Assembly: GCA_934437985.1 (NCBI GenBank)
Contig: CAKSBI010000013.1
Span: 1-52,221, forward strand
DNA: 52,221 nucleotides
Direction: 5' to 3'
Origin: an uncultured Lachnospiraceae bacterium
GTDB taxonomy: Bacteria; Bacillota; Clostridia; Lachnospirales; Lachnospiraceae
A model generated the notes under the pieces. That model worked only from the letters and a program-made list of their open reading frames with translations, had not been told where the DNA came from and did not search any database. Both the position numbers and the translations under genes were made by a program. Shown in pieces: positions 6,041-26,617 of the stretch; positions within the stretch are counted from its first letter, which is position 1, and each line of letters begins with the position of its first letter.

Positions 6041-6111
6041 AAAGGTAGGAAGAAAAACAGAAAGCCTGGTAGCAGATAAGATATGGAGTAAAAGATATGG
6101 AGGGATATAAC

Positions 6112-7047
6112 ATGGCAGACATTAAAGAGAGCGCAACAGAGTTAATTGGTAACACACCACTTTTGAAGCTGAATAATTATCAGAAAAACGCAGGGGCTTC
6201 GGAGGCAGCGATTCTTGCAAAGCTGGAATATCTGAATCCGGCAGGTTCAGTTAAGGACAGGATTGCCCTTGCGATGATAGAGGATGCTGAGAGGAAAGGC
6301 CTGATAAAGCCGGGAGCAACAATCATAGAGCCTACGAGCGGTAATACCGGAATAGGGCTTGCATCGGTTGCAGCAGCCAAGGGCTACAAGGCAGTGCTTA
6401 CACTTCCTGATACAATGAGTATTGAAAGACGTAACCTGTTAAAGGCATATGGAGCACAGATTGTACTTACTGAAGGTGCTAAGGGAATGAAGGGTGCCAT
6501 TGCAAAGGCAGAGGAGATACAGAAGGAGACACCGGGTTCATACATTCTTGGACAGTTTATTAATCCAGCCAATCCTAAGATGCACAGGGAGACTACGGGT
6601 CCTGAGATATGGAACCAGACTGATGGAAAAGTAGATATATTTGTAGCAGGTGTTGGAACCGGTGGAACGGTCACAGGGATAGGTGAGTATCTGAAGTCAC
6701 AGAACCCGGATGTGAAGATAGTTGCAGTAGAGCCGGCCGGAAGCCCTGTTTTATCAAAGGGTACAGCGGGATCGCATAAGCTTCAGGGAATAGGTGCCGG
6801 ATTCGTACCGGAGGTTCTTAATACCAGGATATATGATGAAGTAATAACAATTGAAAATGATGATGCATTTGAAGAGGGAAGAAGATTCGCAGTATCAGAA
6901 GGAATTCTGGTTGGTATATCTTCAGGTGCAGCACTTAAGGCTGCCGTGATACTTGCATCCAGACCAGAGAATAAGGGTAAGACAATTGTTGCCTTATTAC
7001 CGGATTCAGGTGACAGATACTTATCAACATCACTGTTTTCAAAGTAA
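6112..7047 (+). CDS. cysK: Cysteine synthase A (O-acetylserine sulfhydrylase)
   Basis: 311 residues from ATG 6112; GGAGGG at 6099-6104 favours this start over ATG 6097. A fold-type II PLP enzyme that makes cysteine from O-acetylserine and sulfide. Visible motifs: NPAGSVKDR with the PLP lysine K48, TSGNTG (75-80) substrate loop, GTGGT (182-186) phosphate loop, and the C-terminal [10 protein letters not shown]. The length is typical. It is the first gene of the sulfate-assimilation cluster, behind a strong promoter with an operator-like site. CysM or cystathionine beta-synthase are less likely because of the length and motif spelling. No cysE is seen in the window. Confidence 0.95.
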
Positions 7048-7194: not shown

Positions 7195-8928
7195 ATGAGT
7201 GATATACAGATTGAGAAGATAGAGACTGACGTGCTGATAATAGGTGGCGGAACAGCTGGCTGCTACGCTGCGTATGTGCTGGGACAGAGTGGAAGGTATA
7301 ATGTCCTGATAGCAGAAAAAGCTAATATTAAAAGAAGCGGATGTCTTGCGGCAGGTGTGAATGCAATTAATGCGTACATCACAGATGGCAGGGTTCCTAT
7401 GGACTATGTGAACTATGCGAAGCAGGATGCAAAAGGGATAGTAAGGGAAGACTTACTTTTATCAATGTCCGAGGAACTTAATGAAGTGACAGGGGTGCTT
7501 GAGGATAATGGACTTGTTATTTTAAAGGATAAAAATGGAAAATACGTTACAAGGGGCGACCGTAACATTAAGATAAATGGTGAAAATATCAAACCTGTTC
7601 TTGCAGATATGGCGGCAAGGCATGGGAATGTCCGGGTTTTGAATCATGTGAATATTACAGATTACATAGTAGATAATAACCGGATACTTGGAGCTGTCGG
7701 ATTTGATGTCAATGAGAGAAAGGCCTATGCGGTATATGCAGGGGCGGTCCTGGCAGCAACCGGGGGGGCAGCAGGTCTTTACCGGCCGAATAATCCGGGA
7801 TTCTCAAGACATAAGATGTGGTACTCCCCGTTTAATACCGGAGCCGGATATGCAATGGGAATTAATGCCGGGGCTGAGATGACAACATTTGAGATGCGCT
7901 TCATTGCGCTGCGCTGTAAGGACACTATTGCTCCGATAGGCACGATTGCACAGGGTGTCCATGCCAAGCAGATGAATGGCTTTGGGGAGATATATGAGAC
8001 CAGATATGGCACGGCAACGTGTGAGAGGGTATATGGAACGACAAGGGAGATCCTGGAGGGAAGAGGACCATGTTACCTGAAAACAGATGAGATCAGTAAG
8101 GAGCAGGAGGAAGACTTGTATAAGGCATATCTTAATATGGCACCAAGTCAGACTTTAAAATGGCTTGAGGGCGGTCAGGGACCTGCAAGACAAAATGTTG
8201 AGATTGAAGGAACCGAGCCGTATATCGTCGGGGGGCATACCGCCAGCGGATACTGGATTGACAATAACCGTTCAACAACAGTAAGGGGTCTGTATGCAGC
8301 CGGTGATGTTGCAGGGGGCGCACCGCAAAAATATGTGACAGGTGCTATTGTTGAAGGAAAGATAGCAGGTGAAAGCATTGAAAGGTTTCTGGATGAAAAA
8401 GGATTGGAAGAAAATAAGCAAGGCTTTGATTCCATGGCACGGCAGTATATAGAGTCTTATAATCATTATTTTTCAAATGAGGGTTCATTTATCACGATAG
8501 AACAGGTTGAGGAGACTATGCAAAAGATAATGGACGCATATGCGGGCGGAATTGGAAGTAATTATCAATATAATGAAGCCGGGCTTGACCTTGCCAGGGA
8601 GAAGCTGGAAGGCCTGATTCCCGTTATCGAAGCATTAAGGGCAGACGATATGGATGAGCTTTTACAGATATATGAGGTAAAAGAAAGAGTTACGGTATGT
8701 TTTTCGGTAATAGAGCATCTGAAAGCAAGGAAGGAAACAAGATGGCACAGCTTTGCCGAGAATATGAATTATCCGGACGAGAGCAGCAGCTTTAACGAAT
8801 ATGTGAATTCATATAAGGAAAATGGTGAGATACATATCGTTGAGAGGGAACTTGTTGATGCAGCCCATAAGCTGGTATTTAAGTTTGATGATAATAACAG
8901 AATAATAACAGGGGGTGGGACAAGGTGA
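7195..8928 (+). CDS. aprA: Adenylylsulfate (APS) reductase, alpha subunit, AprA-type flavoprotein
   Basis: 577 residues, somewhat shorter than dissimilatory AprA. It belongs to the fumarate reductase/AprA flavoprotein family: N-terminal FAD dinucleotide motif GGGTAG (17-22), RSGCLAAGVNAIN, a central capping domain, and the C-terminal FAD segment GLYAAGDVAGG. It should reduce APS to sulfite and AMP, with electrons from the ferredoxin-like AprB encoded next. The start follows GAGGTGTCGGG. Stop overlaps the aprB GTG start by four bases, so the two are translationally coupled. Flanking cysD and cysN and the absence of dissimilatory dsrAB/qmo genes point to an assimilatory role. L-aspartate oxidase or fumarate reductase are rejected on context. 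Confidence 0.85.
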   Translation: MSDIQIEKIETDVLIIGGGTAGCYAAYVLGQSGRYNVLIAEKANIKRSGCLAAGVNAINAYITDGRVPMDYVNYAKQDAKGIVREDLLLSMSEELNEVTGVLEDNGLVILKDKNGKYVTRGDRNIKINGENIKPVLADMAARHGNVRVLNHVNITDYIVDNNRILGAVGFDVNERKAYAVYAGAVLAATGGAAGLYRPNNPGFSRHKMWYSPFNTGAGYAMGINAGAEMTTFEMRFIALRCKDTIAPIGTIAQGVHAKQMNGFGEIYETRYGTATCERVYGTTREILEGRGPCYLKTDEISKEQEEDLYKAYLNMAPSQTLKWLEGGQGPARQNVEIEGTEPYIVGGHTASGYWIDNNRSTTVRGLYAAGDVAGGAPQKYVTGAIVEGKIAGESIERFLDEKGLEENKQGFDSMARQYIESYNHYFSNEGSFITIEQVEETMQKIMDAYAGGIGSNYQYNEAGLDLAREKLEGLIPVIEALRADDMDELLQIYEVKERVTVCFSVIEHLKARKETRWHSFAENMNYPDESSSFNEYVNSYKENGEIHIVERELVDAAHKLVFKFDDNNRIITGGGTR

Positions 8929-9236
8929 GTATAGCAATTAATGGTAACAAATGCGCCGGCTGCGGAAGGTGCGTCCAGGTCTGTCCCGGCAGCCTTATCA
9001 GGATTCAGGATGGCAGGGCGGTCATTAAAAGGGAAAAGGACTGCTGGGGTTGTACCTCCTGTCTTAAGGAATGTAAGGTGCAGGCAATATCATTTTTTCT
9101 TGGGGCAGATATGGGTGGAAAAGGTTCTGTCCTTTTTGTAGAAGAAAACGGTGATGAAAGGATCTGGACGGTGACGACCCCGGATGGCGGCAGGAAGGCA
9201 ATCGTGGTTAATACAAAGGAGTCTAATAAGTATTAA
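8925..9236 (+). CDS. aprB: APS reductase beta subunit, AprB-like 2[4Fe-4S] ferredoxin
   Basis: 103 residues, starting at GTG 8925 with a G-rich Shine-Dalgarno. Two CxxCxxCxxxC clusters are visible: C10/C13/C16/C20 (followed by Pro) and C40/C43/C46/C50. A beta-rich tail follows, as in AprB, where the tail wraps around AprA. It should carry electrons to the FAD of AprA. The tail is short compared with dissimilatory AprB (~150-165 residues). It overlaps aprA by four bases. A generic ferredoxin is the alternative, but the partner makes AprB the better call. Confidence 0.8.
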   Translation: MSIAINGNKCAGCGRCVQVCPGSLIRIQDGRAVIKREKDCWGCTSCLKECKVQAISFFLGADMGGKGSVLFVEENGDERIWTVTTPDGGRKAIVVNTKESNKY

Positions 9237-9285: not shown

Positions 9286-10191
9286 ATGAGGACAAAGACA
9301 CATTTAGACGAATTAGAGGCAGAAGCAATATACATAATGAGAGAAGTTGCGGCAGAATGTGAGAAGCCTGTAATGCTCTATTCTATCGGCAAGGACAGTT
9401 CGGTAATGCTTCATCTTGCATTAAAGGCATTCTACCCGGAAAAGCCGCCATTTCCATTTTTGCATGTCAACACAACATGGAAATTTAAGGAGATGATTGA
9501 ATTCAGGGACCATGTGGCAGAAAAATATGGGTTTGAAATGCTTGAGTACATCAATGAGGATGGCGTAAAAAAAGGTATTAATCCATTTGACCACGGCTCA
9601 GCATATACAGATATCATGAAGACGCAGGCATTAAAGCAGGCACTTGACAAATATGGTTTTACGGCTGCATTTGGCGGTGGAAGACGTGATGAAGAAAAGT
9701 CAAGAGCAAAAGAGAGGATATTTTCTTTCAGGAATTCAGCCCATGCATGGGATCCTAAGAACCAGAGACCTGAAATGTGGAAGCTATTCAACACAAAGCT
9801 GTTCAAGGGTGAAGAGGTTCGTGTATTCCCGCTTTCAAACTGGACTGAAAAAGATATCTGGCAGTATATCCAGAGAGAGAATATTGAGATACCATCTCTT
9901 TATTTTGCAAAGGAAAGACCGGTTGTGGAGCGTGACGGCAATATTATTATGGTTGATGATGACCGTATGAAGGAACGCCTTCTTCCCGGCGAAAAGATTG
10001 TTAATAAGAAGGTCAGGTTCAGGACGCTTGGCTGCTATCCGCTTACCGGTGGTGTTGAGTCTGATGCGGACACACTTGAGGCAATTATTGAAGAGACGCT
10101 CAGTGCGGTATCATCAGAGCGGACAACCAGGGTTATTGATAACGAGGCGGCAGGCTCTATGGAACGAAGAAAAAGAGAAGGATATTTCTAG
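9286..10191 (+). CDS. cysD: Sulfate adenylyltransferase subunit 2 (ATP sulfurylase small subunit)
   Basis: 301 residues, the usual CysD length. It is an N-type ATP pyrophosphatase with the PP-loop SIGKDSS (33-39), [15 protein letters not shown] (131-145) and the conserved [11 protein letters not shown] segment. With the GTPase CysN it forms APS from sulfate and ATP. ATG 9286 follows GAGGAGAG. cysN starts 12 bp downstream with its own AGGAGG site. Confidence 0.96.
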
Positions 10192-10203
10192 GAGGTACTT
10201 AAT

Positions 10204-11838
10204 ATGCAGTTACTTAAATTCATTACATGCGGAAGTGTTGATGACGGTAAATCAACCTTGATCGGACACATTTTATATGATTCAAAATTATTATATGCAG
10301 ACCAGGAAAAGGCACTGGAGTTAGATTCCAGGGTCGGAAGCAGGGAAGGGGCAATTGATTATTCACTGTTATTAGATGGACTTATGGCAGAGCGTGAGCA
10401 GGGTATTACAATTGATGTTGCCTACAGATACTTTACGACCGACAACAGGAGCTTCATCGTTGCCGACACCCCGGGACATGAAGAGTATACAAGAAATATG
10501 GCTGTCGGGGCATCATTTGCAGACCTTGCCGTCATCCTTATAGATGCAAAGCAGGGAGTACTTACACAGACAAGAAGACATGCAAGGATATGCTCACTGA
10601 TGGGTATTAAATACTTTGTATTCGCAGTTAATAAGATGGATCTTGTTAACTATGATGAGAACAGGTTTAAAGAGATAGAAGCGCAGATTGAAGAGTTAAA
10701 GAATGAATTAGGGCTTGAAAATGATGTGATAATTCCGGTATCAGCTACAGAAGGTGACAATGTTACGGCTAAGAGTGGGAATACACCATGGTACACCGGT
10801 CCGTCACTTCTTCAGTACCTTGAGCAGGTTGACATTCAGGAGAGCCGCAGGGAACAGGGCTTTTATATGCCTGTCCAGAGGGTGTGCCGTCCCAATCATA
10901 CATTCCGTGGCTTCCAGGGACAGATTGAAGCAGGAACCATAAAGGTCGGGGATGAGGTCACTACTTATCCAAGCAATGAAAAGGCTCATGTCAAGAGCAT
11001 ATATTTTGCAGATGAGAAGGTAGATTACGGACAGACAAGGGAGCCTGTTACAATCCAGTTAGACCGTGAAGTGGATGTGTCAAGGGGCTGTGTCCTTTCC
11101 GTAGATTCCAATATTTCAGTTACATCCTCAGTAGAGGCAACGCTGCTCTGGATGGATGATGTGGAGGTAGAGGAAGGAAAGAACTACTTTGTCAAGCTTG
11201 GAACCAAGCTTATCCCGGGTGTCCTTAAGAATATCAAGTATACTATTGATGTTAATACAGGCGAAAAGAAGGACGCTGACATATTGAAGAAAAATGAGAT
11301 TGCTGTATGTGAGATTGTTTTTGCAGATGCGATAGTAGTTGACCTGTTTGAAAAGCATAAAACACTCGGGGAACTTATCCTGATCGACCGTATTACCAAT
11401 ATGACTTCTGCGTGCGGTGTCGTAACAGCACTCCTTGCAGATTCCAATGATTCGGCAGACAGTGTTATTGACCGTGAGGCAAGAAGTAACTTCAAGGGCC
11501 AGCGTGCGATTACGATAGAATTCAATGCAGGAGAATATGACAACACATTAGAATATGTGCAGAAGGTTGAAAAGGAACTAGCAATACTTGGAAGACACAC
11601 ATATCTGTATGCACCAAAGAAAGGTGAAGATATTAAAAATGTTATAAAACATCTTAATAATGCCGGCATATTGGTTCTCTTATATGCCGATGGTGTGGAC
11701 ACATCTGTTTTCAATGAGAACCGTTCTTATATAAGTAACTGGCAGAATGAAAAGCTTACGGCAGGTGAAGCGGCACAACGTATATATAAGTATTCAGGAA
11801 TACACAGTGAAGAGGTTATGGGTGGAGCCTTTATCTGA
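10204..11838 (+). CDS. cysN: Sulfate adenylyltransferase GTPase subunit with an APS-kinase-like tail
   Basis: 544 residues, about 70 longer than E. coli CysN. EF-Tu-type GTPase motifs: P-loop GSVDDGKST (10-18), DTPGH (88-92), NKMD (143-146), then two beta-barrel domains to about residue 410. Residues ~430-500 read like the APS kinase (CysC) domain (KGQRAITIEF ... VEKELAILGRHTYLY ... LNNAGILVLLYADG), but the Walker A sequence GLSGSGKS expected between the first two segments is replaced by NAGEYDNTLE. It is therefore probably a catalytically dead CysC remnant. This agrees with a pathway that reduces APS directly and needs no PAPS. GTP hydrolysis here drives APS formation by CysD. Confidence 0.93.
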   Translation: MQLLKFITCGSVDDGKSTLIGHILYDSKLLYADQEKALELDSRVGSREGAIDYSLLLDGLMAEREQGITIDVAYRYFTTDNRSFIVADTPGHEEYTRNMAVGASFADLAVILIDAKQGVLTQTRRHARICSLMGIKYFVFAVNKMDLVNYDENRFKEIEAQIEELKNELGLENDVIIPVSATEGDNVTAKSGNTPWYTGPSLLQYLEQVDIQESRREQGFYMPVQRVCRPNHTFRGFQGQIEAGTIKVGDEVTTYPSNEKAHVKSIYFADEKVDYGQTREPVTIQLDREVDVSRGCVLSVDSNISVTSSVEATLLWMDDVEVEEGKNYFVKLGTKLIPGVLKNIKYTIDVNTGEKKDADILKKNEIAVCEIVFADAIVVDLFEKHKTLGELILIDRITNMTSACGVVTALLADSNDSADSVIDREARSNFKGQRAITIEFNAGEYDNTLEYVQKVEKELAILGRHTYLYAPKKGEDIKNVIKHLNNAGILVLLYADGVDTSVFNENRSYISNWQNEKLTAGEAAQRIYKYSGIHSEEVMGGAFI

Positions 11839-11894: not shown

Positions 11895-11969
11895 AAGTCC
11901 AACAGGCGGTCAGATAGGCGGCTGCATGAAATGACCATTTATATACTGTACAGGATTAGAGGTGTACAT

Positions 11970-13214
11970 ATGACAGACAGAGGGTACGGTTTTAATACAG
12001 CATTATTACATAGTGCAGATGATGATAATCCATATGGGGCAACGCTGGCTCCGATATATCAGAGCAGCTCATTTAAGCAGGCTGACGCTGAGACACTGGA
12101 GAAGATCTTTAATAACAAGGCAATGGGATTTTCGTATACAAGAATTAACAATCCTACGATAGAGGCATTTGAGAAGAGAGTGAATAAGCTGGAAGGCGGT
12201 ATGTCTTCGGTAGCATGTGCATCAGGAATGGCTGCTATATTTAATGCGATGGTCAATATATTACAGGCAGGTGATGAGATCGTTGCTGCGGCAGGGCTTT
12301 ATGGCGGTACGGTAGAGCTGTTTGATGACCTTGAGGGCCTTGGTATTACAACAAGATATGTTCTTGATAATGAGCCTTCTGATTATGAAGCACTGATCAA
12401 TGATAAGACAAAGCTTATTTTTGCTGAAACAATAGGCAATCCCAAGCTTGACGTTACAGATATAGAAGCTGTGGCAAAGCTTGCACATTCACATAACATA
12501 CCTCTTATTATTGATAACACGGTTGCCACTCCGTATCTTGTAAGGCCGATTGGGCTTGGTGCAGATATTGTTGTGAATTCCTCATCAAAATATATGAATG
12601 GACACAGCAATTCAATTAGTGGTATCCTTACATGGAGCGGTAAGTTTGCATGGGATTATGAGAGATATCCGGGTCTGAAACCATACAGGAAGTTTGGGGC
12701 AATGTCCTACATCGTTAAGCTTCGGAATGGGTTGTTCAGAAATACGGGCGGGTGTCTTTCACCACAGAATGCCTTTTATAACACATTAGGCCTTGAGACA
12801 CTCGGTATCAGGATGGAACGTGAGTGTGGTAATGCGCTGGAGCTTGCGGTTTTTTTGAGGGATGAGATGAAGCTTGATGTCAATTACCCGGGACTTCCTG
12901 ACAGTAAGTACCATGAGGTAGCGGGCAGGCTGCTTGAACATGGATATGGAGCAATAATTACTGTAAGGGTAGGCTCTAAGGAAAGGGCATTTAAGATAAT
13001 TAATGCACTTAAGATTCCATACATACTAGCCAATATCGGAGATACCAAGACACTTGTAATACATCCGGCATCAACAATCGCGGCACATTTGTCTGATGAA
13101 GAAAAGGAGCTGTCAGGTGTATATGATGACCTGATAAGGATAAGTCTTGGAATCGAGGATATTGAAGATTTAAAAGAAGACTTTAGACAGGCAATACAGA
13201 GTACGGAGGGATAG
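11970..13214 (+). CDS. metY: O-acetylhomoserine sulfhydrylase (homocysteine synthase)
   Basis: 414 residues from ATG 11970, chosen for the TTAGAGGTG site just upstream; an in-frame ATG at 11931 lacks one. Cys/Met-metabolism PLP family (fold type I): SYTRINNPT (55-63), YGGT (111-114), D182 (IIDNT) and the PLP lysine K207 in SSSKYMNGHS. It makes homocysteine from O-acetylhomoserine and sulfide or a protein thiocarboxylate. Methionine gamma-lyase or cystathionine synthase are alternatives, but the long MetY-type insert (GKFAWDYERYPGLKPYRKFG) and the neighbours support MetY. It has its own promoter with the shared operator. Confidence 0.9.
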   Translation: MTDRGYGFNTALLHSADDDNPYGATLAPIYQSSSFKQADAETLEKIFNNKAMGFSYTRINNPTIEAFEKRVNKLEGGMSSVACASGMAAIFNAMVNILQAGDEIVAAAGLYGGTVELFDDLEGLGITTRYVLDNEPSDYEALINDKTKLIFAETIGNPKLDVTDIEAVAKLAHSHNIPLIIDNTVATPYLVRPIGLGADIVVNSSSKYMNGHSNSISGILTWSGKFAWDYERYPGLKPYRKFGAMSYIVKLRNGLFRNTGGCLSPQNAFYNTLGLETLGIRMERECGNALELAVFLRDEMKLDVNYPGLPDSKYHEVAGRLLEHGYGAIITVRVGSKERAFKIINALKIPYILANIGDTKTLVIHPASTIAAHLSDEEKELSGVYDDLIRISLGIEDIEDLKEDFRQAIQSTEG

Positions 13215-13217: not shown

Positions 13218-14078
13218 ATGGCAGTAGATTACAAAACACTTAAAAAAGGCGGCTTCATGAGACAGAAGCAAAAGAACAACTTTTCACTTAGGTTAGCAGT
13301 TGTCGGCGGAAAGCTGACAGCCGGGAATCTTGCCAAGATTGCAGAAGTTGCAGAAAAATATGGTGACGGATATGTCCACCTGACTTCCAGACAGGGAGTT
13401 GAGATACCATTCATTAAACTTGATGACATTGATGCAGTAAAAGATGCACTTGCAGAGGGCGGATGCCGCCCGGGCGTATGCGGACCAAGGGTACGTACTG
13501 TTACAGCCTGTCAGGGCAGCCAGATATGTCCAAGCGGCAATATTGATTCATATGATATTGCAGTTAAGCTTGATGAGAGATATTTTGGAAGGGAATTACC
13601 GCATAAGTTCAAGTTTGGGGTAACAGGATGCCGCAACAACTGTCTGAAGGCGGAAGAGAATGATGTTGGAATCAAGGGTGCAATGGATGTTAAGTGGAAA
13701 AAGGAAGCCTGTATTAACTGTGGACTTTGTGCAAAGGTCTGCAGAGAAGGCGCGATATCAATAGAAGCCGGGGAGGTAGATGTCGATTATGATAAATGCA
13801 ACTATTGCGGACGCTGTGTAAAGAGCTGCCCGACAGATGCATGGGATGCGGAAAGTGCTTATGAGGTATCATTTGGAGGAACATTTGGTAATCATATTGA
13901 AGCAGGGTATACACCGCTTCCACTCATCAGATCAGAGGAACAGCTGTTCAGGGTAACAGATGCTGCAATTCAGTTCTTTGAGGATAATGCAGATGCAGGG
14001 GAACGTTTTAAGTTTACACTTGACCGTGTAGGAAGAGACAAGTTAGAAGAGGTATTAAAGGAGGCATATGATGGCTGA
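13218..14078 (+). CDS. Compact siroheme sulfite reductase with inserted 2[4Fe-4S] ferredoxin domain
   Basis: 286 residues. The siroheme/[4Fe-4S] ligand pattern is C98-x5-C104 ... C138-x3-C142. An 8-Fe ferredoxin module follows (C165/168/171/175 and C194/197/200/204; the first cluster has Arg instead of the usual Pro). An N-terminal ferrodoxin-like half-domain precedes (TSRQGVEIPF). It should reduce sulfite to sulfide with six electrons. It has one half-repeat instead of the two of CysI, like AsrC or the low-molecular-weight assimilatory sulfite reductase. Start ATG 13218 has GGAGGG within the end of metY. A nitrite reductase role is possible by family, but all neighbours are sulfur genes. Confidence 0.85.
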   Translation: MAVDYKTLKKGGFMRQKQKNNFSLRLAVVGGKLTAGNLAKIAEVAEKYGDGYVHLTSRQGVEIPFIKLDDIDAVKDALAEGGCRPGVCGPRVRTVTACQGSQICPSGNIDSYDIAVKLDERYFGRELPHKFKFGVTGCRNNCLKAEENDVGIKGAMDVKWKKEACINCGLCAKVCREGAISIEAGEVDVDYDKCNYCGRCVKSCPTDAWDAESAYEVSFGGTFGNHIEAGYTPLPLIRSEEQLFRVTDAAIQFFEDNADAGERFKFTLDRVGRDKLEEVLKEAYDG

Positions 14079-14316
14079 TATTAAGATTGATGATAAAGTA
14101 GATATTACGGATGTTGTCTGCCCGGTAACATTTGTTAAAGCAAAGGTAGCTTTAGAGGAATTAGAAGATGGTGAGATTCTTGCAGTCCGTATGAATGACG
14201 GCGAACCGGTACAGAATGTTCCAAGGAGCATTAAGGAAGAAGGACACCAGATTCTTAAGCTTGAGGATAACGAAGATGGTACTTATACATTAATTGTTAA
14301 GAAGGTGGAGGAGTAA
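14071..14316 (+). CDS. TusA/SirA-family sulfur-transfer protein
   Basis: 81 residues from ATG 14071 (six bases after AAAGGAGG; an ATG three bases earlier is too close). The sulfur-accepting cysteine is C17 in VVCPVTFVKAK. The usual TusA CPxP is here CPVT. The rest fits the family (ALEELEDGEILAV, DGEPVQNVPRS, KEEGHQILK). It overlaps the sulfite reductase gene by eight bases, so it is probably coupled. Likely it binds or relays sulfite-derived sulfur as a persulfide; the exact partner is unknown. Confidence 0.8.
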   Translation: MADIKIDDKVDITDVVCPVTFVKAKVALEELEDGEILAVRMNDGEPVQNVPRSIKEEGHQILKLEDNEDGTYTLIVKKVEE

Positions 14317-14317
14317 T

Positions 14318-14635
14318 ATGGCAGTAAGGGTTAATGCAGAAAACTTTGAAGAGCTTGTTTTGCAGGCAGAGCTTCCTGTGCTGGTAGACTTTTACTCTGA
14401 TACATGTATTCCATGCAAAAAGTTAAACGGACCACTTGGAGATATTGAGGATGATAACGAAGGCAGGTTACTTGTGTATAAGGTGAACGTCAACTATGAT
14501 GAAGCACTTGCAAAGCAGTATGATGTGTCATCAGTTCCAACATTGGTTTTAATAAAGGATGGCAGGGAGGCTGCACGTACTATTGGAGCTGTGGATTATG
14601 GACAGATAGATGAAATGATTGTTAGACACCTGTAG
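14318..14635 (+). CDS. Thioredoxin-like protein with CIPC active site
   Basis: 105 residues from ATG 14318 behind GGAGGAG. Thioredoxin fold with active site C30-I-P-C33 rather than CGPC and the cis-Pro loop SVPT (P74). The usual WC is DTC here, as Trp is replaced by Thr. It begins one base after the tusA stop. Given the thioredoxin reductase at 17302, it could serve as reductant in sulfur transfer or APS reduction. The altered motif suggests a dedicated rather than general thioredoxin. Confidence 0.85.
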   Translation: MAVRVNAENFEELVLQAELPVLVDFYSDTCIPCKKLNGPLGDIEDDNEGRLLVYKVNVNYDEALAKQYDVSSVPTLVLIKDGREAARTIGAVDYGQIDEMIVRHL

Positions 14636-14748: not shown

Positions 14749-14958
14749 ATGATTATCAGCATTGCTGGAGAAAAAAAAGAATATGCTGAAGGAACTACGG
14801 TTACAGAATTAATTGAGAGAGAAAACGTTGATAATCCTGAATATGTAACAGTAACTGTTAATGATGAATTTGTAGACCGTGAGACATTTTCAGCCACAGT
14901 ATTAAAAGAAGGTGACGAAGTAGAATTCCTGTATTTCATGGGAGGGGGAGCAAGATAA
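14749..14958 (+). CDS. ThiS/HcyS-like sulfur carrier protein with masked C-terminus
   Basis: 69 residues with a ubiquitin-like beta-grasp fold pattern (EYAEGTTVTELI, VTVNDEFVDRE, LKEGDEVEFLYFM). It ends GGGAR, so the functional Gly-Gly is followed by extra residues instead of being terminal as in ThiS or MoaD. ATG 14749 has GACGGAGG upstream. The stop overlaps the E1-like gene start (TAATG). With the next two genes it forms a carrier/activator/protease set like the Wolinella HcyS-HcyF-HcyD and mycobacterial CysO-Mec+ systems, in which a JAMM protease exposes or regenerates the GG end. Sulfur destination is inferred to be homocysteine via MetY. Confidence 0.82.
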   Translation: MIISIAGEKKEYAEGTTVTELIERENVDNPEYVTVTVNDEFVDRETFSATVLKEGDEVEFLYFMGGGAR

Positions 14959-15764
14959 TGGCATTTACAAATGAACAGCTAGAAAGATATTCCAGACATA
15001 TAATTCTGAAAGAGGTCGGCGTGAAAGGTCAGAAAAAGCTCCTTAATGCAAAGGTTCTGATCATCGGGGCCGGAGGACTTGGGGCACCGGCTGCATTATA
15101 CCTTGCAGCTGCCGGAGTTGGTACAATCGGTATTGCAGATGCTGACGAGGTAGACCTGTCTAACCTTCAGCGGCAGATTATCCATTCTACTAATGACCTT
15201 GGAAAAGCAAAGGTGAAATCTGCCAAAGAATCAATAGAGGCGATTAATCCGGATGTTACGGTAAAGACATACCGCATGTTTGTTGATTCAACTAACATCA
15301 TGGAGCTGATCAGTGAGTATGATTTTATCTTAGATGGAACAGACAACTTCCCTGCCAAGTTTTTAATTAATGATGCCTGTGTAATGGCCGGAAAACCATT
15401 CTGCCACGCAGGGATCATAAGATTCCGGGGACAGCTTATGACCTATGTTCCGGGAGAAGGACCATGCTACAGGTGTGTATTCAAGAATCCGCCGCCAAAG
15501 GATGCGGTTCCTACATGTAAGCAGGCCGGTGTAATTGGAGCAATGGCAGGTGTTATAGGATGCTTACAGGCAATGGAAGCTATCAAATACATTATCGGCC
15601 AGGGAGAGCTGCTGACAGGAAGACTTCTGACTTACGATTCACTTAAAATGAATTTCAGGACAATTAAGGTTCCAAGAGACTGCAATTGTGCAATATGCTC
15701 AGAACACAGGACAATTACACAATTGATAGATTATGAGCAGGCTGAGTGCGATATGAAGCACTAA
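14958..15764 (+). CDS. ThiF/MoeB/HesA-family E1-like activating enzyme (HcyF-like)
   Basis: 268 residues. N-terminal nucleotide-binding GAGGLG (37-42), DADEVDLSNLQRQ (61-73, with the adenylation Arg), DGTDNF (126-131), a zinc site C170/C173 and C244/C247, and a mobile-loop cysteine C187 (PTCKQ). It would adenylate the carrier's C-terminal glycine so that a thiocarboxylate can form. It overlaps the carrier gene by one base. ThiF and MoeB share this architecture; no thiamine or molybdopterin genes are nearby, so a role in sulfur assimilation is favoured. Confidence 0.9.
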   Translation: MAFTNEQLERYSRHIILKEVGVKGQKKLLNAKVLIIGAGGLGAPAALYLAAAGVGTIGIADADEVDLSNLQRQIIHSTNDLGKAKVKSAKESIEAINPDVTVKTYRMFVDSTNIMELISEYDFILDGTDNFPAKFLINDACVMAGKPFCHAGIIRFRGQLMTYVPGEGPCYRCVFKNPPPKDAVPTCKQAGVIGAMAGVIGCLQAMEAIKYIIGQGELLTGRLLTYDSLKMNFRTIKVPRDCNCAICSEHRTITQLIDYEQAECDMKH

Positions 15765-15777
15765 GGAGGGTAAAGAA

Positions 15778-16230
15778 GTGGCAGCGATTATTGTTCCATA
15801 TCCTGAAACCGGAGAAAAGATTATTATAAAAAAAGAAGATTATGAGCTGATTCTGAAGCACTGTACAGAAGGAATGCCGGAGGAATCCTGCGGCCTGATC
15901 GCCGGACGCAGGGAAGGCAGTGATAACATTATTGAAAAGGTATATCTGCTTACCAATGAGGATCATTCTAATGAACATTTTACAATGAATCCCAGGGAAC
16001 AGCTTGCGGCAGTTAAGGATGCAAGGGCTGGTAACCTTAAAATGTTAGGGAACTTTCATTCACATCCTGAATCACCGTCAAGACCATCCGGGGAGGATAA
16101 AAAGCTGGCGTATGATCCGGGGGCAATATACATGATTCTGTCACTGATGGAGCCCGGTGAGCCGGTACTCAGGGGATTTCGTATAGACAGGGACAGAAAT
16201 GTTACTGTTCATGAGTTAGAGATAGTGTAG
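15778..16230 (+). CDS. JAMM/MPN+ metalloprotease (Mec+/HcyD-like)
   Basis: 150 residues, GTG start 15778 with AAGGAGGG seven bases upstream. All zinc-site elements are present: a Glu in PEESCGL (E35/E36), H94-S-H96-P, S104 and D107 (HSHP-x6-S-xx-D). Bacterial JAMM proteins of this size trim residues after the diglycine of sulfur carriers or release an amino acid from a carrier conjugate. The preceding carrier ends GGGAR, an obvious substrate. It is probably expressed with the carrier and E1 genes. Confidence 0.88.
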   Translation: MAAIIVPYPETGEKIIIKKEDYELILKHCTEGMPEESCGLIAGRREGSDNIIEKVYLLTNEDHSNEHFTMNPREQLAAVKDARAGNLKMLGNFHSHPESPSRPSGEDKKLAYDPGAIYMILSLMEPGEPVLRGFRIDRDRNVTVHELEIV

Positions 16231-16245: not shown

Positions 16246-16863
16246 ATGTCATATTTTCCTTTTATGATAGATATTAAAGATAAGGACTGTCTTGTAGCAG
16301 GCGGTGGACAGACAGCAAAGCGGAAGGTTATGGAGCTGCTGCGGTTTGGTGCGCATGTGACTGTGATAGCGCCGGATGTATGCCGGGAGCTTAAGACTGT
16401 ACGTGAAATAGATATTGCAGAAAAAGAATATGAAAAAAAAGATATTGATGGCAGATTCTTAGTGGTTGCCGCAACTGATAATGGTGAATTAAACCGCAGG
16501 ATATCAGCAGATTGTAATGAACGGCAGATTCTTGTTAATGCAGTGGATATAAGGGATGCCTGTTCATTTATTTTCCCGGCTATAATTAAAAGGGACGAGC
16601 TGGTGGTGAGTATATCTACCGGCGGTAACTCTCCTGCAGGAGCAGCGTATCTGAAAGAGAAGCTCAGACAGGGCATTCCTGACAATTACGAAAAGAATTT
16701 GGAGATACTTGGACATTACAGAAGCGAAATTATGGAAATGATTACGGAACCATCGTTACGTAAAAAAGTGTATTACAGCCTGCTTGAGACTGCATATAAA
16801 GAGAACAGGATTCTTAACAGTAAGGATATACGCAGTTATATTGAAAAGTATTCCGGTATGTAG
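16246..16863 (+). CDS. Precorrin-2 dehydrogenase / sirohydrochlorin ferrochelatase (Met8/CysG-N type)
   Basis: 205 residues. N-terminal NAD-binding segment with GGGQTAKRKV (19-28), VVAATDNGELN (73-83), VNAVDIRDACSFIFPA (97-112, with the likely catalytic Asp) and STGGNSPAGA. A C-terminal helical dimerisation part follows. It completes siroheme from precorrin-2, the cofactor of the sulfite reductase two kilobases upstream. The methyltransferase step is supplied by the cobA-hemD gene. It starts 15 bases after the JAMM gene. Confidence 0.9.
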   Translation: MSYFPFMIDIKDKDCLVAGGGQTAKRKVMELLRFGAHVTVIAPDVCRELKTVREIDIAEKEYEKKDIDGRFLVVAATDNGELNRRISADCNERQILVNAVDIRDACSFIFPAIIKRDELVVSISTGGNSPAGAAYLKEKLRQGIPDNYEKNLEILGHYRSEIMEMITEPSLRKKVYYSLLETAYKENRILNSKDIRSYIEKYSGM

Positions 16864-16877
16864 AAAGGGTGTACGGT

Positions 16878-17291
16878 ATGAAGATTTCGTCAAAATCAAG
16901 AGGGGCAATTTTATTTATGGTTGATTTGGCTAAATATAATACAGGGGAACCGATACGGCTGAAGGAGGTAGCTAAGAGAAGGCACATTTCTGAAAAGTTT
17001 CTGGAGCAGATAATCAGTGTCCTCAATTCTTCGGGGCTTGTGCGCTCGGTAAGGGGGCCGCATGGCGGTTATATATTAAATGGTGATCCGGCGGAGCTTA
17101 CGGTTGGAATAATACTCAGGAAGATGGAGAGTAATATGTTTGTCAGCGAGTACGTGCCTGCGGATGACTACGATGTTACGGTAAAGATATGTGAAAAGCT
17201 TGAGGATGCTATAAATGGCGTGATAGATGGGATAAGTCTTCAGGACCTTGTGGAATGGGAAGAAAGCATGGTCTTGAATTATTGTATTTGA
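16878..17291 (+). CDS. Rrf2-family regulator without Fe-S cysteines (CymR-like)
   Basis: 137 residues from ATG 16878 behind AGAAAGGG; an in-frame GTG at 16869 overlaps that site. N-terminal winged helix (SSKSRGAILFMVDLAK ... HISEKFLEQIISVLN ... GPHGGY). The IscR-type cysteine cluster is missing: only two scattered Cys remain. In Firmicutes the Cys-less CymR controls cysteine and sulfur genes by binding CysK. A similar role at the shared 17-mer operator is a reasonable inference. It begins 14 bases after the Met8-like gene. Confidence 0.88.
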   Translation: MKISSKSRGAILFMVDLAKYNTGEPIRLKEVAKRRHISEKFLEQIISVLNSSGLVRSVRGPHGGYILNGDPAELTVGIILRKMESNMFVSEYVPADDYDVTVKICEKLEDAINGVIDGISLQDLVEWEESMVLNYCI

Positions 17292-17301
17292 GGTGGCCGG
17301 A

Positions 17302-18264
17302 ATGTATGATATAATAATAATCGGCAGTGGTTCTGCAGGACTTACTGCAGCAATATATGGAATAAGGGCAGGTAAAAAAGTCCTTGTTATAGAAAAAGAA
17401 TATGAAGGAACAGGGCAGATAGCACTAAGCAGTAAGGTTGACAACTACCCTGGTTACTATAATATAGATGGATATACACTTGGGGAGCATTTCAGGGAGC
17501 ACGCACTTTCCCTTGGTGCAGAGATTAAAAATGGAACAGTTTTGTCGATCAGGAAAGTATGCAGCAATAAGATATCTGACACCGGGATATCCGGTTCAGG
17601 TATAGAAGCTGACGGCTTAGGGGAAGTATTTGAGGTGGCAATAAAGGTCCGCAGGAATGAGATACTATACAGGGCAGCTGACATAGTATACTGTGCTGGG
17701 GCACATCACCGTATGTTGAATGTAGATGGTGAAGAGAGGCTGCAGGGAAAAGGTGTATCATACTGTGCAACATGTGATGGCAGCTTCTTTAAGGGTATGG
17801 CTGTAGCCGTTGTAGGTGGCGGTGACACGGCCTTAGATGATGCACTGTACCTGTCGGACATAGCAAAGCATGTGACACTGATACACAGGAGGGACAGCTT
17901 CCGGGGCGCATATACGACACTGGAAAAGCTGCGTGGCAGAGAAAATGTAACCATAATTACAGGTGTTAATGTTAAGGCGGTTGCCGGTAAGGATAAGGTG
18001 GAAAAGCTTGTCCTTGATAATGATAATGAGATTGATGTGGATGGCGTTTTCATTGCAGTAGGAATGGTGCCGGAATCCGGGCTGGTAAAAGGACTGGCAG
18101 AGTGTGACGCTGCCGGGTATGTAAAAGCAGGAGAGGATGGAAGGACAGACTGTAAGGGCTTATACGTTGCAGGAGATGTGAGGACCAAGGAGCTGAGGCA
18201 GGTAATCACAGCGGCAGCTGACGGTGCTAATGTCATTAATTCAATAATACAGGATGACAGATAA
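17302..18264 (+). CDS. trxB: Thioredoxin reductase-like flavoprotein
   Basis: 320 residues from ATG 17302 (GAGGTGG at 17290-17296; an in-frame GTG at 17293 lies within that site). FAD motif GSGSAG (8-13), redox pair C155-A-T-C158 followed by DGSFF, NAD(P)H motif VGGGDTA (171-177), and a C-terminal AGDVR FAD segment. It should recycle a thioredoxin, most simply the CIPC thioredoxin at 14318. A low-identity insertion lies at about residues 88-115. Ferredoxin-dependent or flavodoxin-type variants cannot be excluded by eye. Confidence 0.87.
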   Translation: MYDIIIIGSGSAGLTAAIYGIRAGKKVLVIEKEYEGTGQIALSSKVDNYPGYYNIDGYTLGEHFREHALSLGAEIKNGTVLSIRKVCSNKISDTGISGSGIEADGLGEVFEVAIKVRRNEILYRAADIVYCAGAHHRMLNVDGEERLQGKGVSYCATCDGSFFKGMAVAVVGGGDTALDDALYLSDIAKHVTLIHRRDSFRGAYTTLEKLRGRENVTIITGVNVKAVAGKDKVEKLVLDNDNEIDVDGVFIAVGMVPESGLVKGLAECDAAGYVKAGEDGRTDCKGLYVAGDVRTKELRQVITAAADGANVINSIIQDDR

Positions 18265-18283: not shown

Positions 18284-19180
18284 ATGCATTATGTGATAGG
18301 AACGAGAGGTTCTAAGCTTGCACTTGCACAGACGGAGAAGGTTAAGAGAACTCTTGAATCAGCATATCCGGAGGATACATTCGGGATTAAGATAATACGT
18401 ACGGCCGGAGATAAGAATCCTGCCAGTGCACTGGAGATGATAGGGACAAAAGGGATATTTACGGATGAGATAGAAAGAGAACTGTTGTCCGGGGAGATTG
18501 CAATGGCAGTACATTCTATGAAGGACATGCCGGGTGATATAGATGAACGTCTGGTGTTTTCAAGGGCATGGACAAGGGAGGATCCCAGGGATGTATTAAT
18601 ACTAAAGGCTGCGGATAGTCTTAAAGAACTGCCGGAGGGTGCCGTTATAGGGACAGGAAGCAAAAGAAGGGAATATCAGCTAAAGAAGCTGAGGCCTGAT
18701 ATCAGGGTAGTCGGTATCCGTGGTAACGTAGACACCAGAATTAATAAGCTGTATGACCCGGAACAGGGGCTTGACGGTATTATTATTGCCGCTGCGGGGA
18801 TAAAAAGGCTTAAGCGTGAGGCTGAGATTACGGAATATATGCCGTGTGATGATATTATCCCGGCACCGGCACAGGGTATACTAGCCATTGAAGTGAGAAA
18901 GGACAATACAGAATTACTTGATAAGCTAAATGCGTTTGCTGATAGGGAGGCTGATTATGCAGCAGGGATAGAAAGACAATTCCTTGCAAAAATTGGTGGT
19001 GACTGCCATTATCCTATCGGTGCATATTATGATTCAAAAGGTATATTTTATGCGCTTTTTGGCAGACAGGATGGAAGTAAGCTTGTGTCTGTTAAGAGAG
19101 TTATAGTAGACAAAAAAGCTGATATTGATAAGATTACAGATGAGGTTGTGGCAGAGATACTATCGAAGCTTAAGGATTGA
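18284..19180 (+). CDS. hemC: Porphobilinogen deaminase (hydroxymethylbilane synthase)
   Basis: 298 residues. TRGSKLALAQT (7-17), catalytic Asp in HSMKDMP (D81), RGNVDTR, and the dipyrromethane-cofactor cysteine C241 in GGDCHYPIGAY. It joins four porphobilinogen units. In this cluster it feeds uroporphyrinogen III to siroheme. It lies 19 bases after trxB. Confidence 0.96.
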   Translation: MHYVIGTRGSKLALAQTEKVKRTLESAYPEDTFGIKIIRTAGDKNPASALEMIGTKGIFTDEIERELLSGEIAMAVHSMKDMPGDIDERLVFSRAWTREDPRDVLILKAADSLKELPEGAVIGTGSKRREYQLKKLRPDIRVVGIRGNVDTRINKLYDPEQGLDGIIIAAAGIKRLKREAEITEYMPCDDIIPAPAQGILAIEVRKDNTELLDKLNAFADREADYAAGIERQFLAKIGGDCHYPIGAYYDSKGIFYALFGRQDGSKLVSVKRVIVDKKADIDKITDEVVAEILSKLKD

Positions 19181-19241
19181 CTGATAAGCTGATTGATGAA
19201 AATGCCTGTCTGGATAACAGGAATTGACCGGGGAACAGAAT

Positions 19242-20849
19242 ATGAGTGGAAAAGTTATATTAATTGGGGCGGGTCCAGGGGATCCGCTGTTAATTACATT
19301 AAGGGGAAAACAGTATATTGGGCAGGCTGACTGCATAGTGTATGACAGGCTTGCTTCAAGTGAGCTTTTAGCTTACGCAAGGTCTGACTGTGAATTAATA
19401 TATGTTGGAAAAGAGAATCATCATCATACGATGAAGCAGGATGATATTAACGGGCTGCTTGCAAAAAAAGCAGGGGAATATAATATGGTCGTGCGTCTTA
19501 AAGGCGGAGACCCTTACGTCTTTGGCAGGGGTGGGGAAGAAGCACTGTATCTGAAGGAGAGACAGGTTGAAGTTGAGGTTGTGCCGGGAATCAGTTCGGT
19601 TATTGCAACTCTTACGGATGCAGGGATTCCAATAACCCACAGAGGCTTATCAAAGGGCTTTCAGGTTGTGACTGCACATAGCAAAAGAGATGAAATGGCA
19701 GATATTGATTATGCCGGACTGCTTGATGATTCTGTTACGTATCTGTTTCTGATGGGATTATCACATACAGAAGAGATAGCAAATGGACTGATGGCAGCCG
19801 GAAAGCCGGCAGATACCCCTGCGGCAGTTATATCTAACGGAACAACTGCCAGACAGAAAAAAGTGGTCGGTAACCTTAGTAACATTTATCAGATGGTACT
19901 GGATGCAGGACTTGTATCACCGGCTATAATTGTAGTTGGAAATGTGGTGACACTTGCAGGCAGCCTTGATTTCTTTGAATCAAGACCATTATTTGGCAGA
20001 AAATACATTGTTCCATATATTGAGAGATTCTGTTTTTCATATGACAAAGGAATTATTCCTGTTAAAAGACAGGGACATTTTGATTCTGAATTAGAACAGG
20101 AGCTCAGGGAACAGGGCGCAGAGATATGTTCAGTTAAGGTAGGTGCAATTGTTCCCGTAGAGGTGCCGGAAGCTGCATTTTTTAACAGCTTTAAGTCAGA
20201 CTGGATAGTATTCACAAGCCAGAATGGTGTTAATACATTTTTGTGGAACCTGAAGAAAAGAGGGCTTGACATAAGGGCTGTATCAAATGCGAGGATAGCC
20301 TGTGTCGGCAAAAAGACGGCAGAGACCCTGGAAAAGGCTGCCCTGCAGGCAGACCTTATACCTGAGATACAAAACAGCAGGGAATTGTACAGAAGTCTTA
20401 TTGATGAGATTGAAAGCTCCGGGAATACTGTTAATACAGAGCATTCTGATGAAGCATCCGGTGTGGTCAGGGTTACCTTATTCGGAGCCGGAGGGGCAGA
20501 TGAAGAACCCGGTGGATATCTGGGTGGAAAATGCAGCTTTGAAAAGCTTGTATGTTATGAGAATGCCGCAAACGATGATTTTGCCGGTGAAGACGGTGAA
20601 AACAGATGTAAAAGCTATGATAAGGCTGACTGGAGTGACTTTGATGGTATAATATTCACCAGTGGCTCATCAGTAAGGAGATTTGTAAAGTTGTCAGAAG
20701 GCGTACTTCCTGATAAAATATATTCTATTGGGCCAACGTGTTCAGAAGCAATAAAAGAAGAGACAGATAGGCCGTTTGAAGAAGCAGAAACCGCAAGCTA
20801 TAAGGGCTTATTGCAGCTGATAAACGGTAACCGGCAGATGGACATGTGA
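19242..20849 (+). CDS. Uroporphyrinogen-III C-methyltransferase / uroporphyrinogen-III synthase fusion
   Basis: 535 residues from ATG 19242 (ACCGGGGA upstream; an in-frame TTG at 19224 is less likely). Residues 1-245 are SUMT (CobA): GAGPGD (9-14) and RLKGGDPYVFGRGGEE (85-100). The rest is HemD: a hinge, FTSQNGVNTF, KTAETL and FTSGSSVRRF. A low-complexity acidic insertion (about 395-460) interrupts HemD. The fusion does both ring closure and the two methylations leading to precorrin-2, a common arrangement in Clostridia. Confidence 0.93.
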   Translation: MSGKVILIGAGPGDPLLITLRGKQYIGQADCIVYDRLASSELLAYARSDCELIYVGKENHHHTMKQDDINGLLAKKAGEYNMVVRLKGGDPYVFGRGGEEALYLKERQVEVEVVPGISSVIATLTDAGIPITHRGLSKGFQVVTAHSKRDEMADIDYAGLLDDSVTYLFLMGLSHTEEIANGLMAAGKPADTPAAVISNGTTARQKKVVGNLSNIYQMVLDAGLVSPAIIVVGNVVTLAGSLDFFESRPLFGRKYIVPYIERFCFSYDKGIIPVKRQGHFDSELEQELREQGAEICSVKVGAIVPVEVPEAAFFNSFKSDWIVFTSQNGVNTFLWNLKKRGLDIRAVSNARIACVGKKTAETLEKAALQADLIPEIQNSRELYRSLIDEIESSGNTVNTEHSDEASGVVRVTLFGAGGADEEPGGYLGGKCSFEKLVCYENAANDDFAGEDGENRCKSYDKADWSDFDGIIFTSGSSVRRFVKLSEGVLPDKIYSIGPTCSEAIKEETDRPFEEAETASYKGLLQLINGNRQMDM

Positions 20850-20918
20850 CATATAGTCATAAGTGTAAAAAAATGAGATTACTAATTGCCAATAAAAGAA
20901 TAATAAAAGAGGAAAATA

Positions 20919-21881
20919 ATGGATAGAACAAGAAGATTACGAAAAAATGAAAATATGAGAAGTCTTGTCAGGGAAAATTCTATATCTGTAGAACAGTTGA
21001 TATATCCCATATTTGTGACAGAGGAAAAAAACGTAAAAAATCCTGTTGCATCAATGCCGGGTATATACCAGTTTTCACTGGAATGCTTAATTGATGAGGT
21101 GAAGAAAGCTGCAGACCTTGGTATAAATGCCCTGCTTTTATTCGGGATACCGGAGCACAAGGATGAGACCGGAAGCGGTGCATATGCCGTGGATGGAATA
21201 ATTCCAAGGGCAATAAAGCTGATCAGGAAGGAATATCCCGATATTATTATAATTGCAGATGTATGCCTGTGTGAATATACGGCGCATGGACATTGCGGGC
21301 TTGTCAGGAATGGTGAGGTTTTAAATGACGAGACACTGCCGCTGCTTGCAAAAGCTTCTGTATGCTATGCAGAGGCAGGAGCGGATATTATTGCACCAAG
21401 TGATATGATGGATCTGCGTGTTGCGGCAATCCGTGAGGCACTGGACAGGGAGGGCTTCACCAATATTCCAATATTGTCATACAGTGCAAAGTTTGCATCA
21501 GGTTATTATGGCCCATTCCGTGATGCAGCACATTCGGCACCGGGATTTGGTGACAGGAAGAGCTACCAGATGGATCCTGCTAACGGAAGGGAAGCGCTAC
21601 GTGAAGTTGAAGAGGACATACTTGAGGGGGCAGACTTTGTTATTGCGAAGCCTGCGCTGGCTTATATGGATATTATCAGGGATATTTACCTTAACTACAA
21701 TATTCCGATAATAGCATACAATGTAAGCGGTGAGTATGCTATGGTAAAGGCAGCAGCGTCAAACGGATGGATTGATGAAAAGAAGATTGTTATGGAGAAT
21801 ATGATAGGCTTAAAACGTGCGGGGGCTGCTGCGATCATAACTTATCATGCTTTGGATGTTGCCAGGTGGCTGCTGGAATAA
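20919..21881 (+). CDS. hemB: Delta-aminolevulinic acid dehydratase (porphobilinogen synthase)
   Basis: 320 residues. Zinc cysteines C116/C118/C126 (DVCLCEYTAHGHCG), Schiff-base lysines K191 (SYSAKFASG) and K244 (VIAKPA). It condenses two ALA to porphobilinogen, the first step of the tetrapyrrole branch here. ATG 20919 follows AAAGAGGA. The ALA-forming genes hemA and hemL are not in the window. Confidence 0.96.
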   Translation: MDRTRRLRKNENMRSLVRENSISVEQLIYPIFVTEEKNVKNPVASMPGIYQFSLECLIDEVKKAADLGINALLLFGIPEHKDETGSGAYAVDGIIPRAIKLIRKEYPDIIIIADVCLCEYTAHGHCGLVRNGEVLNDETLPLLAKASVCYAEAGADIIAPSDMMDLRVAAIREALDREGFTNIPILSYSAKFASGYYGPFRDAAHSAPGFGDRKSYQMDPANGREALREVEEDILEGADFVIAKPALAYMDIIRDIYLNYNIPIIAYNVSGEYAMVKAAASNGWIDEKKIVMENMIGLKRAGAAAIITYHALDVARWLLE

Positions 21882-26519: not shown

Positions 26520-26554
26520 AAAAAGATAATTCCACGATATGCGAATATTGGGTA

Positions 26555-26617
26555 GGATTGTGGGAGTGCGAAGCACGGAACAATCCGCAGGCATCAAGGC
26601 GGGGGCTTTTGACCCCG
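26555..26617. other. Structured intergenic element, unidentified
   Basis: Two neighbouring hairpins: a two-part stem at 26555-26586 (GGATTGT / ACAATCC enclosing GTGC-GAA-GCAC) and a GC-rich 5-bp stem at 26600-26617 (CGGGG / CCCCG). It lacks a T tail and so is not a clear terminator. It could be a small RNA, a repeat-family copy (REP-like) or a 3' end structure of the GH43 transcript. Confidence 0.4.

Follow-up and report, generated by a model that had tools for sequence, protein, structure and literature searches.

Why should a ThiS-like sulfur carrier carry extra residues behind its terminal glycines, and why should it lie among genes for sulfate assimilation? This question is raised by a 52,221-nt stretch of DNA from an uncultured Lachnospiraceae bacterium (assembly GCA_934437985.1, contig CAKSBI010000013.1; hereafter the window), in which a tailed sulfur carrier, an E1-like activating enzyme, and a JAMM metalloprotease are encoded one after the other, downstream of the O-acetylhomoserine sulfhydrylase MetY. 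Judging from gene content, the sequence type of MetY, and related loci, the cluster probably encodes a route from sulfate to homocysteine, in which the carrier would be trimmed to Gly-Gly-Gly by the JAMM protease, charged by the E1, and used by MetY on O-acetylhomoserine.

The carrier (14749-14958, + strand; 69 amino acids; Pfam ThiS, 1.3e-13) is of the HcyS type, and its C-terminus reads ...YFMGGGAR, as the initial annotation had stated. The HcyF-type adenylating enzyme (14958-15764, +; 268 amino acids; Pfam ThiF, 2.1e-89) is without a rhodanese domain. The one-base overlap claimed for the two genes is real: the A that closes the TAA of the carrier also opens the ATG of the E1. The HcyD-type JAMM/JAB metalloprotease (15778-16230, +; 150 amino acids; Pfam Prok-JAB, 6.8e-22) begins with GTG 13 bases past the E1 stop, and it is intact as annotated, with both PEESCGL and HSH-x10-D complete. 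The trio also lies, as described, downstream of MetY (11931-13214, +) and a sulfite reductase (13218-14078, +), the former directly preceding the latter. This reductase is of the small siroheme type with a 4Fe-4S ferredoxin insert (NIR_SIR, 7e-27; NIR_SIR_ferr, 4.5e-22; Fer4). Its open reading frame (ORF) is overlapped by 11 bases by that of TusA (SirA/CCD1; 14068-14316, +; Pfam, 5.6e-21), which has the conserved Cys-Pro, and a thioredoxin-like protein with the motif CIPC follows (14294-14635, +; Pfam, 1.8e-21). Farther upstream, family matches identify the sulfate adenylyltransferase CysD and CysN (9286-11838, +) and the adenosine 5'-phosphosulfate (APS) reductase AprA and AprB (7195-9236, +; AprA, 2.9e-261), AprB being assigned from its position and ferredoxin-like sequence with no NCBIfam match. 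By these family models, genes leading from sulfate to sulfide are present within the same cluster as the trio.

In the proposed pathway, CysD/CysN and AprA/AprB would convert sulfate to sulfite, and the small siroheme sulfite reductase would produce sulfide, perhaps handed over on TusA. The JAMM protease would cleave Ala-Arg off the carrier, and the E1 would adenylate the glycine thus exposed, which would become a thiocarboxylate by reaction with sulfide or with a TusA persulfide. MetY would then transfer the thiocarboxylate to O-acetylhomoserine, and the JAMM protease would cut the carrier-homocysteine adduct, yielding homocysteine and the carrier.

The MetY sequence supports this route. When a profile of the cluster MetYs was compared with solved structures, the PDPSYHG stretch of 7kb0 and 8sf5 was missing from the cluster MetYs and from the Wolinella MetY 3ri6. 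This loop, typically SYHG, is absent in all 60 cluster MetYs (that of the window and those of 59 related loci, leaving out the fragment in L012 and the 34% match in L042) and in 3ri6, whereas the region is filled in 59/59 MetYs of Clostridia that are not linked to such a cluster, with YHG in 57 of them. Because these 59 had been taken as the top hits of the canonical model, which biases the comparison, 20 lower-scoring unlinked MetYs were added; the region is filled in all 20, by YHG in 17 and by other residues in 3. A careful tree of 52 rows, thinned by hand, supports the split of the cluster MetYs plus 3ri6 from canonical MetY at 100/99 and the cluster MetYs alone at 97/85. By the loop deletion and the position in the tree, the MetY of the window is thus of the Wolinella type in sequence, a loopless, carrier-linked MetY, and the family-model scores in related genomes (below) divide along the same line. 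We infer that the loop may determine the sulfur donor of MetY. An AlphaFold model of the protein had a mean predicted local distance difference test (pLDDT) score of 71.3, with residues 1-60 below 50; it was set aside, and no conclusion is drawn from it. Whether the loop region is filled or missing serves as a one-loop sequence test that separates carrier-linked from canonical MetY.

Related loci were collected with a JAMM alignment, for which a single genome of each species was scanned, and the best 80 of 316 loci were used. As labelled, most belong to Lachnospiraceae and other Clostridia; a few are from Veillonellaceae, and a single one is from Synergistaceae. Gene order was counted in those 67 loci whose sequence extends 4.6 kb or more upstream of the JAMM gene, and neighbouring genes were sought within 6.5 kb. 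The order carrier-E1-JAMM is kept in 65/67 loci, and the arrangement of the trio is therefore not due to chance; the full order MetY-sulfite reductase-TusA-carrier-E1-JAMM is found in 50. MetY was present in 58 loci, the sulfite reductase in 60, TusA in 62, and the thioredoxin in 45, for which reason the last is regarded as accessory. The core of the cluster consists of MetY, the sulfite reductase, and TusA together with the trio. Its motifs are conserved as well: HSHx10D of the JAMM protease is intact in 80/80 loci and P-x-E-(S/A)-CGL is present in 77/80, and the Cys-Pro of TusA is kept in all 70 readable cluster TusAs.

Several observations weigh against the homocysteine route. In 9/67 loci, no MetY with 45% identity or more was found at up to 6.5 kb from the JAMM gene. 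Neither a SAM (S-adenosylmethionine) riboswitch nor a T-box reached the Rfam gathering score in the window or in seven related loci, so that the end product is unconfirmed by regulation. Among the 20 lower-scoring unlinked MetYs, three carry other residues in place of YHG (L379 in G237, L380 in G104, and L378 in G019; those of G237 and G104 under the canonical cut-off). The branch of 3ri6 is very long (2.1 changes per column in the 52-row tree), and the Shimodaira-Hasegawa-like approximate likelihood ratio test (SH-aLRT) value of 85 for its joining of the cluster group comes only from a larger, quick tree of 122 rows. A tailed cluster carrier also occurs in L228 of genome G041, in which no such JAMM was found and where the contig begins just before the carrier. 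Finally, a MetY above the TIGR01326 cut-off (at least 530 bits) was present in 24/24 JAMM-positive genomes searched, 23 of which also had a full-length or near-full-length match below that cut-off (383 to 464 bits). The cluster would then probably not be the sole route to homocysteine. With canonical MetY kept by the relatives, redundancy is likely, and carrier genes that proved dispensable on sulfate would therefore not by themselves refute the mechanism, although the initial annotation had named such dispensability, together with equal use of free sulfide by MetY, as a refutation.

We then consider the tail itself. Comparison of carrier C-termini in related genomes, which the initial annotation had called for, revealed residues after GGG in 73/73 readable cluster carriers (none was readable in 7 of the 80 loci), and a tail was present on all of the best 120 of 2237 carrier protein homologs. 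Among the 73, the tail is two residues long in 58 and one residue long in 12, and lengths of three, seven, and ten occur in one carrier each. Its letters vary, the first residue being Ala in 34, Ser in 14, Cys in 10, Gln in 6, Arg in 5, and Thr in 4. Ala-Arg is the commonest tail, but it is not a signature of the carrier; the commonest form is one or two residues with Ala, Ser, or Cys first.

Such a steady length with variable letters is one argument for a role of the tail as a spacer in the DNA. In the window, the Gly-Gly-Gly codons, two tail codons, and the TAATG stop/start overlap occupy 14941-14960 (+), with GGAGG at 14941-14945, and from the pattern across loci the glycine codons are a probable ribosome-binding site for the E1. 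The carrier stop and the E1 ATG share a base in 57/73 loci. In 56 of these 57, the best Shine-Dalgarno match within the 20 bases before the E1 ATG falls in the three Gly codons, and in 42 of these loci it ends 9 bases before the ATG, exactly the spacing that a two-codon tail yields. AGGAGG occurs in the Gly codons of 45/73 cluster carriers and of 29/122 thiamin ThiS genes (Fisher p 1.7e-7, with related genomes not being independent; four ThiS-ThiG fusions are left out of this count). Ala-Arg might then be no purposeful mask; the tail may have arisen as a spacer that places this Shine-Dalgarno sequence relative to the E1 start, rendered harmless by JAMM cleavage and tolerated for that reason. 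If so, the carrier and the E1 would be translationally coupled via the same glycines that carry the sulfur. Against this stand the tendency of Gly codons to favour a Shine-Dalgarno-like match regardless and the weaker match of the window itself, which is only GGAGG and lies 12 bases ahead of the E1 start. The thiamin ThiS genes with tails described below also speak against it: they sit in genomes without detected ThiF (G143 excepted), so that E1 spacing cannot account for their tails. On balance, we consider the spacer explanation plausible but somewhat more doubtful than not. The earlier view of the tail as a mask is kept with this qualification: the tail may also be a spacer for E1 translation.

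Tails are not confined to the cluster carriers. In 20 JAMM-positive genomes, some thiamin ThiS genes adjoining ThiG were also tailed. We then read ThiS beside ThiG in 133 ThiG-positive genomes. Of these, 43 were among 120 genomes of the family to which G006, labelled Roseburia hominis, belongs; 42 were further genomes with JAMM loci, and 48 further ones came from a class sample of 156 genomes around a Clostridium. Among the JAMM-locus genomes, 45 of the 70 searched were ThiG-positive, ten of the 80 JAMM loci lying outside that search. ThiS was readable in 126 genomes, leaving out G041, G141, G168, G166, G161, G333, and G279. JAMM was called from the locus scan plus A1 profile scans at E ≤1e-8, and ThiF from TIGR02354 at E ≤1e-30; in G144 and G066, an E1 encoded in the thiamin region was also counted as ThiF. 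Where JAMM is present and ThiF absent (27 genomes), ThiS is tailed in 14, fused to ThiG in 4, and untailed in 9. Where both are present (20 genomes), it is tailed in 1 (G143) and untailed in 19. Where JAMM is absent (79 genomes, 71 with and 8 without ThiF), no ThiS is tailed or fused. Overall, a tail or ThiG fusion is found in 19/47 JAMM-positive versus 0/79 JAMM-negative genomes, which argues that the JAMM protease removes such tails.

Fisher tests gave p 0.001 within the ThiF-negative and p 1.6e-5 within the JAMM-positive genomes, values that ignore kinship and overstate the case. On a ThiG tree of the 126 genomes, the tail changes at least 12 times, with 5 changes forced by supported branches. 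A paired test of the tail against JAMM presence with ThiF absence, on five supported pairs, found 2.4 going the same way, 0 opposite, and 2.6 without difference (median p 0.25), too few pairs for significance; a previous run with 91 of these genomes had given 4.3, 0, and 0.7 (median p 0.125). These data are most simply explained if tails on ThiS-type carriers can be cleaved off by this JAMM and if it has, together with the E1, replaced ThiF in several relatives. The pattern suggests a trimming hub shared by pathways. We see an even chance that the pair is indeed a trimming-and-loading hub for two pathways, also processing tailed or ThiG-fused thiamin ThiS where ThiF was lost, so that vitamin B1 would depend on the JAMM protease, with the glycine codons doubling as the E1 ribosome-binding site and the tail as a spacer that this protease removes. 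Some gut anaerobes would then be unable to make vitamin B1 without a protease of sulfate assimilation.

Some individual loci deserve mention here. The four ThiS-ThiG fusions, with a short linker after GGG, are in L189 (G164), L193 (G013), L198 (G148), and L216 (G017), all JAMM-positive with no ThiF found. In JAMM-positive G003, a 163-amino-acid ORF (L212:4774-5265, minus strand) lies between an untailed ThiS and ThiG, and only the second half of the ThiF model matches it; perhaps it is a ThiF in decay. An exception to the association is a second ThiS-like gene with the tail LSN (L298:7282-7722) in G127, where no such JAMM was found.

Could the trio serve something other than homocysteine? One alternative is cysteine: the thiocarboxylate might go to O-acetylserine via the cysteine synthase CysK, much as CysO works with CysM in mycobacteria. 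The window does encode a CysK upstream (6097-7047, +; TIGR01139, 1.4e-137), a possible alternative sulfur acceptor, and in 16/67 loci a CysK with 50% identity or more is encoded within 6.5 kb. It is, however, 4.9 kb upstream of MetY, and MetY is the nearer pyridoxal phosphate enzyme to the trio; MetY occurs in 58/67 loci, is immediately followed by the sulfite reductase gene in the window, and shows the Wolinella-type deletion. In addition, the E1 of the window has no rhodanese domain, unlike the E1 of the cysteine-synthase neighbourhoods described in the relevant part of Iyer, Burroughs and Aravind (2006; PMC1779556). A CysO-type route was rejected on the relative distance of MetY and CysK and on the rhodanese-less E1, and we regard it as very improbable. 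Scarcely better is the case for MetY using free sulfide while the trio serves another task such as thiamin synthesis or tRNA thiolation. The carrier does score above threshold with the thiamin ThiS model TIGR01683 (66.2 versus a cut-off of 37.45 bits; NCBIfam), and in some relatives the E1 and the JAMM protease seem to act on thiamin ThiS. Automatic annotation is likely to label the carrier thiamin ThiS on the strength of this match, which is misleading. A separate ThiS adjoins ThiG in many relatives, what sets the cluster MetY apart from canonical MetY is precisely the loop that the Wolinella MetY is missing too, and the trio is embedded among sulfate reduction genes. The identity of the carrier as thiamin ThiS was rejected in view of its tail, present instead of an exact Gly-Gly end, and of the lack of ThiG among the 20 window proteins scanned with Pfam and NCBIfam. 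Another task for the trio is therefore improbable in our estimate.

Least probable is a ubiquitin-like protein modifier with the JAMM protease as its deconjugase. The E1 and the protease match UbaA and desampylase of the SAMP (small archaeal modifier protein) system, both below the cut-offs. The setting is sulfur assimilation, with MetY and sulfite reductase genes beside the trio in most loci, and neither E2 nor E3 was found among the same 20 proteins; on the setting and this lack, the modifier was rejected. The remaining alternative concerns the source of the sulfur, which might reach the carrier from a TusA persulfide instead of free sulfide if the sulfite reductase loads TusA. DsrAB loads DsrC in a comparable way, though this parallel is only an analogy. 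TusA is present in 62/67 loci, its Cys-Pro is invariant in the readable copies, and its ORF overlaps that of the sulfite reductase. On the other hand, the Wolinella work is said to have had bisulfide itself as the nucleophile. A rhodanese-like role of SirA/TusA is taken up in the neighbourhood account of Iyer et al. (PMC1779556). We consider a TusA donor possible but unlikely. The transfer to O-acetylhomoserine by a loopless MetY thus stays the preferred reading for the cluster.

Downstream of the trio, the window continues with genes that fit siroheme supply. The precorrin-2 dehydrogenase part of siroheme synthase (Met8/CysG-N; 16246-16863, +) is followed by an Rrf2-family regulator nearest to CymR but below the CymR cut-off (16869-17291, +) and by a thioredoxin-reductase-like protein below the family cut-off (17293-18264, +), all by family match. 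HemC, CobA-HemD, and HemB (18284-21881, +), the HemD half being assigned from position and length only, would provide tetrapyrrole for siroheme. AprA/AprB, which are chiefly associated with sulfate respiration, stand here beside CysD/CysN in a seemingly assimilatory cluster. An Rfam match to Clostridiales-1 RNA at 26444-26596 is barely over the gathering score (49.9 versus 48 bits). Among the seven related loci searched, the sole Rfam match was a TwoAYGGAY RNA element (L021:10651-10816), downstream of JAMM and before AprA.

A second sulfur system was noticed in some of the relatives. A ThiS-ThiF-rhodanese fusion of about 490 amino acids is encoded beside a type 2A encapsulin-family shell protein (Pfam PF19307, 7e-93 in L005) in L005 (16207-19530), L016, L018, L056 (10710-14596), L063, L072 (12957-16718), L233, and L305. 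The carrier part of the fusion ends IAGG and is followed by more protein, and a JAMM gene and a cysteine-synthase-like gene lie near it in several of these loci. In this fusion, a JAMM protease could release the carrier part from the E1 to which it is joined. In the main texts of two encapsulin papers, the words ThiF, MoeB, and JAB are absent.

How does the cluster compare with known systems? The closest is that of Wolinella succinogenes, whose HcyS/HcyF/HcyD/MetY chemistry was reportedly described by Krishnamoorthy and Begley in 2011. The Wolinella carrier is said to have a tail after Gly-Gly, a single Ala, and to occur with an E1 and a JAMM protease beside MetY and sulfate reduction genes. 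The window shares the tailed carrier, the E1, the JAMM protease, MetY, and the sulfate reduction genes with that system as so described, and it shares with 3ri6 the lack of the SYHG loop in MetY; it differs in having Ala-Arg in place of a single Ala. The 24 relatives of the window that were searched also keep canonical MetYs. The Wolinella pathway to methionine is cited in PMC6225789 and PMC6271081.

The neighbourhood itself has been known since 2006. Row 4e of Iyer et al. (PMC1779556), in the part available, combines a ThiS/MoaD carrier, JAB, an E1 without rhodanese, SirA, a sulfite reductase, and an O-acetylhomoserine sulfhydrylase, all of which the window has, and lists Wsuc (taken as Wolinella) and six low-GC Gram-positives. 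It includes 3'-phosphoadenosine 5'-phosphosulfate (PAPS) reductase, whereas the window has AprA/AprB. SirA is said there to be always present, which the window fits and the related loci, with TusA in 62/67, do not strictly follow. The carrier was suggested there as a possible end point of the sulfur, and the neighbourhood account, in that part, has no mention of tails, the MetY loop, or tailed thiamin ThiS. The window cluster is thus a further example of this neighbourhood, with its chemistry taken from Wolinella. The protein-thiocarboxylate route to homocysteine in the initial annotation holds up, as the gene set fits row 4e and the loop deletion and tree position of MetY are as in Wolinella; its presentation as new for Firmicutes does not, since they were listed in 2006. 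With the present analysis, the route would be firmly anchored in Lachnospiraceae as well as in other Clostridia. Neither the MetY loop nor the Gly-codon ribosome-binding site nor tailed thiamin ThiS was found in the parts of the open-licence literature searched, which is weak evidence of novelty.

For a shared hub there are precedents, described here from the parts of the sources available. In the BE-7585A 2-thiosugar pathway of Amycolatopsis (Sasaki 2014, cited in PMC6225789), carriers are borrowed between pathways, there for antibiotic synthesis. Deinococcus DRJAMM frees MoaD from a MoaD-MoaE fusion (PMC8832034), exposing the terminal glycine of a carrier as the ThiS-ThiG fusions would need. 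It acts in the molybdenum cofactor pathway, whereas the window concerns sulfate assimilation. The mycobacterial CysO system makes cysteine instead, reportedly with CysM and Mec+ as partners. As predicted for the window, an E1 loads a sulfur carrier there, and this E1, MoeZR, serves the carriers of two pathways (PMC3227635), which is a precedent for one E1 at the centre of a shared hub.

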